64,000 nucleotides of DNA, from the NCBI RefSeq assembly GCF_026248685.1, contig NZ_CP111036.1:1674001-1738000 (forward strand), given 5' to 3'. This DNA comes from Haladaptatus caseinilyticus (lineage in GTDB: Archaea; Halobacteriota; Halobacteria; Halobacteriales; Haladaptataceae). A program made the position numbers and the translations under genes. Numbering within the stretch: position 1 is the stretch's first letter; each line of letters starts with the position of its first letter. Below, piece by piece: positions 18,860 through 55,687 of this stretch. The notes below the pieces were generated by a model. It had not been told where the DNA came from and did no database searches. It was given only the letters and a program-made list of their open reading frames with translations.

Positions 18860-18952
18860 TCGTCCCTCATTTCGATGACCGTCTCAGGTTTCGATTCGCA
18901 CTCCCTTTTCGAGCAGAAATGCTGAACTATTTCCTACCCGAATTGGAGCCCA

Positions 18953-19545
18953 ATGACCCGATTCCAGAACACAGGACAGCCCGATTGGGACTGGTGGGAA
19001 CGGCTTTGGCCTGCTCCGAGCGAGCTGCTCCGAACGCTCGGGGTCGAGTCGGGCGAAACCGTCGCGGAAGTCGGTTGTGGCAACGGCTATTTCGTCCTCC
19101 CGGCTGCGGAACGTGCGGCGATGGTATATGCGGTCGATATGGACGACGAACTACTGGCAGAACTCGAAGCGATCGCCGAAAATCGCGACCTTACCGGCCG
19201 AATCGAAACGATTTGCGGTGACGCTCGGATCCTTCCCTTCCTGCTTCCTGCCAGCGTCTCGTTTGCGCTCGTTGCGAACGTTCTACACGGTGTCGGTGAA
19301 AAACGTCAGTTCCTTCGACCGTTCGGCAGGTTCTCGAACCGACCGGCCGAGTTGCGGTCATCAACTGGCACGACCAACCGCGAGCCGAAACGACGCTCGA
19401 CGGCGAGCCGCGTGGCCCGCCGACAGACGTTCGGATGTCACTCGACGAAACGACGACCCTGCTCGAAGACGCCGGGTTTTCGATCGAAGAAACGGTCGAA
19501 CTGCCGCCGTTTCACTACGCCGTCATCGCTGAGCGAGCGGAGTGA
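18953..19545 (+). pseudogene. SAM-dependent methyltransferase, frameshifted
   Basis: The first frame gives a normal class I methyltransferase: ESGETVAEVGCGNGYFVLPAAE (SAM motif), then AVDMDDELLAEL and FALVANVLHGVGEK to about codon 121. There the coding frame switches: from 19318 the -1 frame reads TVRQVLEPTGRVAVINWHDQ and continues to the family's usual C-terminal end at 19545. A single missing base near 19316-19318 explains it (FLR followed by TVRQ with one extra A). It may be a true mutation or a sequence error; without correction the product lacks its last third. Confidence 0.8.
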
Positions 19546-51905: not shown

Positions 51906-53306
51906 ATGGTGGGGAGCGAGTTCGACGACGAGGACCCGAACTTCGGGTACGTCACACCCGAAAACGTGGCACTGTTTACCGACCTCTACGAGTTGACGAT
52001 GCTGCAGGGGTATTACAGAGCGAATCACACCCCCAGGGCGACGTTCAGCCTCTTCTTTCGCGACCTGCCGCCGAATAGAGGCTACGTTCTCACGGCGGGA
52101 TTGGAGCAAGCGATCGCCTCCGTGGAATCCCTCTCGTTCGGCGAGCTGGCACTTTCGTATCTCCGTGACAGGGGATTCGAGGATGAGTTTCTCGACGAAC
52201 TCGCCGATTTCGAGTTCACCGGCGAACTGCGGGCGCTTCCGGAGGGGACGCCGGTGTTTCCGAACGAACCGATTCTGGAGGTGACCGCCCCGATTTTCGA
52301 AGCGCAGCTGTTCGAGACGATTCTGTTGAACCAAGTCGGGTATCAGTGCCTCGTCGCGACGAAGGCGGCACGAATGCGCGAAGCTGTCGAACGCTACGGC
52401 GACGACCAGTCGCTCGTCGATTTCGGCTGTCGGCGATCCCACGGCACCGACGCCGGAATGAAAGCCGCTCGTGCCGCCGTCGTCGGTGGCTTCGACGGCA
52501 CTTCGCTCGTTTCTGCGGGGGAAACGTTCGATATCCCCGTTTATGGCACGATGGCCCACTCGTGGGTTCAGAGCTTCGAAAACGAGCGTGACTCGTTTTC
52601 GACCTTCATCGAACAGTACGGCGATGACCCGATTTTGTTGGTCGATACGTACGACTCCGTCGAGGGGGCTCGAATCGCGATGGACGTCGCTAACGAACAC
52701 GATATCGAGGTCGGCGTGCGCCTCGATTCGGGCGACCTCGCCGTGCTCTCGAACGAAGTCGAAGCGATCGTCGGCGATGCGCCGATCTTCGTCTCCTCGA
52801 GCATGGATGAGTACAAAATCGTCGAATTCTTCGAAAACGGCGGCGTGGCGACCGGGTTTGGTCCCGGTACAGCACTGACGACGAGCGAGGACGCGCCTTC
52901 ACTCGACCTCGTGTACAAACTCACCGAAATCGAACGCGACGGCGAGATGCGCCCGAGCATGAAACTTTCGTCCGGCAAAGTCACCTTCCCCGGCGCGAAG
53001 AGCGTCTATCGAGTCCGGAGCGGAGAGGGTGACGAAACGTACGAAAAGGACGTTCTCGCGCTGCGAAACGAAGACGTTGCTGGAGTAGAAGCGGCAGACG
53101 ACCAGCTGGTGACGGTCTTCGAAAACGGAAATCGAGTGATCGACCTACCGCATCTCGATGCGATTGCGGATCGAGCGGGGGAACGACGCCGAAAACTCCC
53201 TGTGCGATGTCGCGCCCTGCACGAATCGGAGGAGTATTCGGTAGAAATCAGCGACGGACTCCGAGCGTTGACGGACGAATTGCAGGCGGAACTGGCGGCT
53301 GACTAG
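51906..53306 (+). CDS. pncB: Nicotinate phosphoribosyltransferase
   Basis: A 466-residue enzyme of NAD salvage that joins nicotinate to PRPP. Visible hallmarks are FTDLYELTMLQGYYR at the start, DFGCRRSHGTDAGMKAAR and VGGFDGTSLVSAG (the substrate and PRPP loops), and VRLDSGDLAVLS. The phosphate-site GTALTTSED and GAKSVYR also fit. Its 3' end overlaps the tail of otsA by four bases on the opposite strand. Confidence 0.95.
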   Translation: MVGSEFDDEDPNFGYVTPENVALFTDLYELTMLQGYYRANHTPRATFSLFFRDLPPNRGYVLTAGLEQAIASVESLSFGELALSYLRDRGFEDEFLDELADFEFTGELRALPEGTPVFPNEPILEVTAPIFEAQLFETILLNQVGYQCLVATKAARMREAVERYGDDQSLVDFGCRRSHGTDAGMKAARAAVVGGFDGTSLVSAGETFDIPVYGTMAHSWVQSFENERDSFSTFIEQYGDDPILLVDTYDSVEGARIAMDVANEHDIEVGVRLDSGDLAVLSNEVEAIVGDAPIFVSSSMDEYKIVEFFENGGVATGFGPGTALTTSEDAPSLDLVYKLTEIERDGEMRPSMKLSSGKVTFPGAKSVYRVRSGEGDETYEKDVLALRNEDVAGVEAADDQLVTVFENGNRVIDLPHLDAIADRAGERRRKLPVRCRALHESEEYSVEISDGLRALTDELQAELAAD

Positions 53307-54857
53307 ACGTTCTCGCGTTGGGTGAGCATTTCGCTCGCCGAACGAAGTACGTCGCGTTTCCATCGCTCGATATCGTTCGTTTCGACCTGCGCTCGGAGCC
53401 GACGCATTCGGTCCGACCGCTCCGATTGGTCCATCGTTCGTGCCTGTTCGACGGTCGTCGCGAACGCTTCGGTATCGTTCGGGTGAACCGTCAACGCTGA
53501 CTCCCCGAGTTCCTCGTGTGCACCGACGAGTTCGCTCAGTACCAACACACCCGGCTCGGCGATTTGTGAGGCGACGAACTCCTTCGCCACGAGATTCATC
53601 CCGTCCCGGAGCGAGCTTACGAGGCAGATATCGGACTCCCGATACAGTGCGGCCAGCGCCGATTGCGGCAGGTGGTCGTCTATCGAGACGACCGGTTGCC
53701 ACGTCGGCGTTCCGAACCGGTCGTTGATTCGTTCGACCTGTTCCTCGACGTTCGCTTGTACGCGCTGATATTCGTCGATTTGGCTCCGGCTTTCGGTCAC
53801 TTTCTGTACGTACGTGAGTTGCTCCCGACAGCTGGGATACCATTCCCATAGATGTTCGAGCGCGGCGAGTCGCTGTTCGATTCCTTTCGTGTAATCGAGC
53901 CTATCAACGCCGAGAAGGATCCCTCCCTCATTAGGAAGCGGATAGGTCTCTCGGAGAGACCTCCACTGTTCGTCCGCCTCGTCGGACTCGGCGAGCGTCC
54001 GTCGTTCTTCGGTATCGATACCGAGGGGGAATGCCGAGACACGAATCGTCCGACCGTCGTAGTCGATGTGGCCGCGGGTTCGGTCCACGTCGGCGTCGAG
54101 CGTCTGTGCAACGCAGTCGAGGAAGTTCCGACAGTATCGATCGAGATGGAAGCCGAGGAGGTCGTTGGCCAGCAGTCCATCGAGCAGCGCTTCGTACTGC
54201 GGACAGCTCTGGAACACGTCCCACGATGGCCACGGAATATGCCAAAACTGCATGCAGAACGCATCGGACGACTGCTCGCGCACGTATCTCGGTGCGAGCG
54301 CGAAGTGGTAGTCTTGAAACCAAACGACGGCGTTCGACGGATCGGTTCGCTCCACGATCGCGTCCGCGAACTGTCGATTCGTCTCCCGATACTGTCGCCA
54401 GTATCGTGCCTCCTGCGTTACTTTCGCCGTGTCGGAATGACACAGCGGCCACAGCACTTGGTTGCTGTACCCGTAGTAGTAGTTTCGCACCTGTTCGTTG
54501 GTGAGATCGATGCGTTTCAGTTCGTATGATGGGGATTCGGGGGGGGACCCGAACGCAGCCGTTTTCGTCGGTCACTTCGTCGTCCGCGTCGCCGCTTCCC
54601 CACGCAACCCACGTCCCTCCGGTATCCGCCATCATCGGGTCGAGTGCTGACGTGAGACCGCCTGCTGGTCGAGTGACGGTGATCGACCCGTCGTCGTGTT
54701 CGTGCGTGTATGGCTCTCGATTCGATACCAGAACGAAATCACGATTCTCGAAGGAATCGGGCATCGAAGGAGGGAATCCGTTCGCTTCGGAACGAGAATC
54801 CGAAGCGGGTGTATCCGAGTTGCTCACTGTCGTGTTTGTGAGCGAAAGCACAATCAC
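53303..54857 (-). pseudogene. otsA: Trehalose-6-phosphate synthase, single-base frameshift in a C8 tract
   Basis: GT20 enzyme making trehalose 6-phosphate from UDP- or ADP-glucose. The N-terminal frame (from GTG 54857) gives FVLVSNREPY and RPAGGLTSALDP and runs to VRVPP. Eight consecutive C (minus strand; plus-strand G at 54539-54546) then shift the frame; seven C would read VPPESPSYELKRIDLT into the downstream frame, which supplies FWHIPWPSW, GVDRLDYTKGI, and SLRDGMNLVAKEF to the end. All catalytic motifs are intact once corrected. Phase variation, mutation or sequencing error are all possible. A TATA box at 54882-54889 supports the start. Confidence 0.85.
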
Positions 54858-54927: not shown

Positions 54928-55440
54928 CTATTCGAACAGTTCGCCGTGGCGTTCCGCGAGGTCGGTATAGGCACCGGAGGAGTAGGCTTCGAAGGTTTCC
55001 TCGGGGTCGATTGCCGTCTCGGCGAGTGGCGTGACCTGTGCCGGTACCCCGCGAACGAACGATTCCGGCGGGATTTCGAACGCTTCCGGTGTCACGGTTC
55101 CCGACGCGACGATGCTTCGTTCTCCAACTCGAACGTCGCTGTTTATCGTCGCGTTGAACCCGACGAGTGCGCCGTCCCTGACTTCCGCGTCGTTGAGGAC
55201 CGCGCCGTGACCGACCATCACCCGGTCGCCGACGACCGAGGCGTGTAGGACGGCGTTGTCCCCGATGTGTGACTCCCGGCCGATTCGCACCGGCGAAATA
55301 TCTCCCCTGCAAACCACGCCGGGCCAAACGCTCGCGTCAGCGTCGATATGCACGTCTCCGACGAGCGTCGTCTCCCGACTGACGTGAGCGTCCTCGTGGA
55401 TGGATGGTTCTTCCCCCTCAAACCCATACGTTCGAGCCAT
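54928..55440 (-). CDS. Gamma-carbonic-anhydrase-like beta-helix protein, one metal ligand missing
   Basis: A 170-residue left-handed beta-helix protein with hexapeptide-like turns. The gamma-CA ligands would be three His: H66 in AVLHAS and H78 in VGHGAVLN are present, but the third, five residues later, is Asn 83. The usual loop between the first and second His is also short. It could bind a different metal, form a hetero-subunit or act as an acyltransferase relative. Start MARTYGFEGEEPSI is used. Confidence 0.85.
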   Translation of the reverse strand: MARTYGFEGEEPSIHEDAHVSRETTLVGDVHIDADASVWPGVVCRGDISPVRIGRESHIGDNAVLHASVVGDRVMVGHGAVLNDAEVRDGALVGFNATINSDVRVGERSIVASGTVTPEAFEIPPESFVRGVPAQVTPLAETAIDPEETFEAYSSGAYTDLAERHGELFE

Positions 55441-55516
55441 AGCTCTGACACGACGTTTTCGGACAAAGCTCTGGCGGGGGTAGCTTTTACTGGACGAACG
55501 TCGTGTCTCTACAGCG

Positions 55517-55687
55517 ATGTACAAAGCACAGCTTTCCGACGGCGAACAGATACGGTGCGACGACTACGAGATGGAGGAAGTCGGTGTCAGATTGTTCGAC
55601 GAGGACGGCGACTTTCTCGCATTCGTTCCGTTTGCCCATCTCTTGTGGGTCGGTCGCGTCGACGAAGCGGGACGAACACTCTGGTAG
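55517..55687 (+). CDS. 56-residue conserved haloarchaeal protein
   Basis: A very short protein beginning MYKAQLSDGEQIRCDDYEME and ending in LWVGRVDEAGRTLW. It has a beta-rich pattern with aromatic ends and no catalytic motif. Codon bias and a TTTTACTG box about 27 bases before the ATG support it. Divergent from the carbonic-anhydrase-like gene. Function unknown. Confidence 0.6.
   Translation: MYKAQLSDGEQIRCDDYEMEEVGVRLFDEDGDFLAFVPFAHLLWVGRVDEAGRTLW

Follow-up and report, generated by a model that had tools for sequence, protein, structure and literature searches.

The window, by which we denote the whole 64,000-nucleotide stretch of DNA analysed, contains on its minus strand a stand-alone otsA gene (positions 53303–54857), encoding a GT20 trehalose-6-phosphate synthase paralog and broken by one extra base. 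Its start codon is uncertain, with GTG candidates situated upstream of FENRDF. The gene is flanked by a plus-strand ORF (51906–53306), its stop codon overlapping that of otsA in a tail-to-tail arrangement, and by a second minus-strand ORF (54928–55524). From recognition of their sequences, we take these putative genes to be nicotinate phosphoribosyltransferase-like and gamma-carbonic-anhydrase-like, respectively. Homologs of both neighbours adjoin the stand-alone ortholog in six congeners.

A frame break at a run of eight C

The N- and C-terminal parts of the stand-alone otsA do not share a single reading frame, being divided at a minus-strand run of eight C at 54539–54546 (eight G on the plus strand, which reads TTC-GGGGGGGG-ACC across the break). 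The 5' part (54547–54857, minus strand) includes two N-terminal segments, SNREPY and PAGGLTSAL, and occupies its own frame up to Val-Pro-Pro; when this frame is kept, the minus strand is read as GTC CCC CCC CGA ATC and translation continues out of register for about 200 codons, ending at 53931. Leaving one base out of the run (VPPESPSYELKRI) brings both halves into register, the minus strand then being read as GTC CCC CCC GAA TCC, with the junction VPPESPSYEL and a frame that stays open until the stop at 53303. The 3' part (53303–54538, minus strand) extends in the second frame from ESPSYELKRI to the stop codon. The original prediction of one surplus base in this run, with seven bases restoring a single frame, is thus confirmed. 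The 3' part also contains a 395-codon minus-strand ORF opening at an internal GTG (RNYYYGYSN; 53303–54490), and a product restarted here would be devoid of the N-terminal SNREPY and GGL segments.

The in-register product consists of 482 amino acids without a stop. Its 3' part matches PF00982 over profile positions 87–471 with 406 bits (406–412 bits; cut-off 32.5), a match that by sequence makes the window gene a member of the GT20 trehalose-6-phosphate synthase family. The 5' part gave no match when searched alone against Pfam; it exhibits 74% identity with residues 1–99 of the intact ortholog of the congener G001, on which the two parts are placed with a net offset of 1 base. Residues 4 to 472 of the in-register product align with solved trehalose-phosphate synthases (best 5jij, E 6e-83), and identity with the nearest ortholog reaches about 81% in DNA and 82% in protein. 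The window copy therefore resembles OtsA of CAZy family GT20 in its profile match and end-to-end alignment with solved enzymes, and differs from it by the frame-splitting base and by the lack of an adjacent otsB. A dinucleotide shuffle of the window predicted 1.83 G/C runs of eight bases per 64 kb, and one is seen, so that such a run is in itself no rarer than expected from base composition; what is not due to chance is its position between the collinear halves of a single conserved gene.

GT20 copies in the genome and the genus

The genome (G000; 4.8 Mb in 7 contigs, 99.99% complete) is assigned to Haladaptatus by kinship, its congener G003 having an otsB-linked paralog identical to that of H. 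litoreus. It contains three GT20 genes, namely one followed by otsB, the stand-alone copy of the window, and one on contig C6. Its single otsB adjoins a copy other than that of the window, which qualifies the original prediction, where the split gene had been treated as the trehalose synthesis gene. A GT20 tree including eight congeners separated a stand-alone clade, with one member in each of the nine species, from a second clade of otsB-linked copies and a third comprising the C6 copy and extra copies of two congeners (G002 and G007). Each otsB-linked copy is followed, at similar spacing, by a trehalose-phosphatase-like motif, whereas no such motif adjoins the stand-alone copies. In each of the nine genomes the otsB-linked paralog is intact, and this constancy, together with the occurrence of a stand-alone copy throughout the species of the genus, may be of interest to researchers of haloarchaeal osmoadaptation. 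The stand-alone otsA is probably redundant: the broken copy shares its genome with two further GT20 genes, one of them with otsB, which may be functionally equivalent, and we infer that otsAB is able to stand in for it. The extra copies of the three genomes, situated on other contigs in their separate clade and without an adjacent otsB motif, are perhaps plasmid-borne.

The run itself was compared across the eight congeners, each species being represented by one genome. The stand-alone ortholog lies in one frame in seven of them, and its Val-Pro-Pro site is encoded by varied codons (e.g. GTG CCG CCG, GTC CCG CCG, GTG CCG CCC or GTC CCC CCG), the longest C run in intact orthologs being about 2–6 bases. 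Consequently, among the genomes read, the eight-base run is private to this one and a by-product of synonymous codons; the comparison of run length in relatives, which the original prediction had proposed as a check, revealed a tract that is not conserved. A contig scan for a named stand-alone otsA copy from the same or a near species returned none.

Constraint on otsA and other breaks in the assembly

Nei-Gojobori dN/dS estimates, obtained pairwise and branch-wise, gave 0.11–0.13 on the window branch (95% interval 0.07–0.20) versus 0.17–0.18 on the sister branch. The values were alike for the two parts of the gene, that of the short 5' part being imprecise, with a wide interval. Seven of the 264 columns invariant in the other orthologs are changed in the window copy (range among the other orthologs, 1–12), and no in-frame stop or further indel was detected in the in-register gene. 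When neutral drift was simulated (0.05 changes per site), just 5% of genes escaped acquiring a stop, and any real inactivation is thus young. Normal coding constraint downstream of the break had been claimed from the window alone, and these estimates bear it out on both sides; with no other lesion present, they indicate that the base was gained very recently or is present in the assembly only.

The frequency of comparable breaks was assessed in 464 kb of this genome, sampled in stretches. Coding sequence there contains 18 runs of at least seven of any base, of which the otsA run alone causes a frameshift. A near-complete survey of the genome for G/C runs of at least seven bases found 47 coding runs in frame and flagged four others. 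Two of these resemble gene overlaps, with the shift about 30 bases away at stop and start signals, and the other two are true shifts, each with one base too many: otsA and a threonine-synthase-like PLP-dependent enzyme gene (PF00291) on contig C2. The latter is split exactly at a G7 run (G000:C2:313801-313807), where six bases would fit, and is one open frame in seven congeners. Among about 49 coding G/C runs there is therefore one more clear single-base break of this kind, which fits either error or mutation.

A protein-based comparison with G001 was used beside a codon-HMM frame-break scan, the scan being of use for comparing assemblies only. The comparison yielded seven candidate breaks in 153 genes, several of which are attributable to a gap of more than one base, to the end of a gene or to a break on the G001 side; otsA is the clearest single-base break among these 153 orthologous genes in 464 kb, and the sole one in a long run. 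Thus, the assembly is mostly clean, with occasional homopolymer gains. In the scan, the otsA event scored low (rank 42 of 66), which we think is due to the cheap restart at GTG 54490 and the short 5' part.

Other frame changes were observed in the course of these comparisons. Within the window, a gene for a small SAM-dependent methyltransferase (18880–19480, plus strand; PF13649 on its first part) exhibits an apparent frame change around 19315, near FLR..QVLEP, a second possible single-base break that lies outside any long run; its ortholog was not found in most of the genus. One gene of G001:C2 (L191:10479-11820) shows two close frame changes, its ortholog in G000 being undisrupted; paired indels or a G001 error probably account for them. 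The stand-alone otsA of G007 is also split, elsewhere in the gene, by loss of one C of a CCC near DPSEAV (G007:C21, about 541,850). This break is probably an assembly error, G007 displaying 29 apparent breaks in 155 genes against G001, almost all of them single-base. A recurrent loss of the stand-alone paralog, considered because of the G007 break, was accordingly dropped, and an association of broken stand-alone copies with a third GT20 copy (two of three genomes with it versus none of six without it) falls together with that break.

Origin of the surplus base

All the data are accounted for by an accidental surplus base, whether confined to the assembly or very recently acquired by the organism, and in our judgement this is very probably the correct reading. 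Constraint intact on both sides and the lack of a second lesion agree with two readings already listed in the original prediction, a recent break and a sequencing error. We give roughly even chances to a consensus error of the assembly at the otsA run, and a little less than that to a very recent polymerase-slippage mutation; on one assembly, the two were rated nearly equal, with error slightly ahead. A real mixture of eight and seven bases within the culture would look alike in a consensus. In either case, the base is, we infer, an accident and is not maintained. The window gene shares with the singleton frameshifted genes of the GeneTack survey its isolated break, single-frame orthologs and validation by homology, with no difference of note, and those singletons were ascribed to sequencing error or recent indels (PMC3711429).

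If the base is real, the proposed sequence of events would begin with a C7 stretch arisen through synonymous codon choice (GTC CCC CCC for Val-Pro-Pro), to which slipped-strand mispairing would have added one C. Translation would then shift after VPP and end at 53931, and an internal restart at GTG 54490 would give a product without the N-terminal sugar-binding SNREPY and PAGGLTSAL segments, in which the residues for the sugar phosphate and the UDP-sugar are presumed to lie (Arg9 and Gly22 of E. coli OtsA). The stand-alone copy would thereby be inactive while the otsAB pair is intact, and the locus would represent the very beginning of the loss of one trehalose synthase copy out of three.

The original prediction had also envisaged a length-variable tract acting as an on/off switch of trehalose synthesis. 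At such a phase-variable locus, slipped-strand gain and loss of C would turn this OtsA copy on and off and produce a bet-hedging mixture of cells. Were this true, a poly-C tract would be switching an archaeal osmolyte paralog, namely one of three trehalose-phosphate synthases; the open-access literature yielded no account of an archaeal osmolyte gene switched by a homopolymer. The break within a C8 run does recall phase-variable poly-C/poly-G contingency loci, no G/C run found within a gene of this genome exceeds it in length and only one equals it, and the remainder of otsA is under normal constraint. Beyond the run itself, however, no mark of a contingency locus is present. None of the orthologs read retains the run, OtsA is not a surface structure, and its paralogs are intact, so that switching the stand-alone copy, with the otsAB pair and the third copy remaining, probably would not switch trehalose synthesis. 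The genome is poor in long G/C runs, with only six of at least eight bases in 4.8 Mb versus about 140 expected by extrapolation from the dinucleotide-shuffle rate of the window; a survey has found poly(C)/poly(G) tracts to be generally underrepresented in prokaryotic genes (PMC2831843). Four of the six are noncoding or at the margin of a coding sequence, the fifth is the otsA run, and the sixth, in a DapA-like gene, is in frame. Moreover, the unrelated PLP-dependent gene carries an equal lesion. We therefore consider a switch very improbable, and caution that a single-base homopolymer break in one assembly is weak evidence for one. In all six runs it is the listed contig strand that carries the G, a bias that is probably due to chance.

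Compensation of the frameshift, by +1 ribosomal slippage on CCC CCC CGA or by transcriptional slippage on the C run, would still supply some full-length OtsA, and we regard this as slightly more improbable again than a switch. In bacteria and phages, CCC is known as a P-site codon prone to +1 shifts, and frameshifting is thought to be used by halophilic archaeal viruses (PMC5009743). Yet the orthologs, lying in one frame and without the run, have no need of it. Programmed frameshifting is recognised by a site conserved in several genes (PMC3711429), and here the arrangement of shift site and frames is not conserved, seven orthologs being single-frame and that of G007 broken elsewhere.

Least probable of all, and very unlikely, is an old pseudogene fixed at eight bases: the probable redundancy of the stand-alone copy and its disruption in two of the three genomes carrying a third copy would suit it, but none of the eight congeners combines a run fixed at eight with decayed codons, the pattern by which the original prediction would have recognised a plain pseudogene, neither side of the run in the window copy shows decay, and the G007 break is best read as an assembly error.
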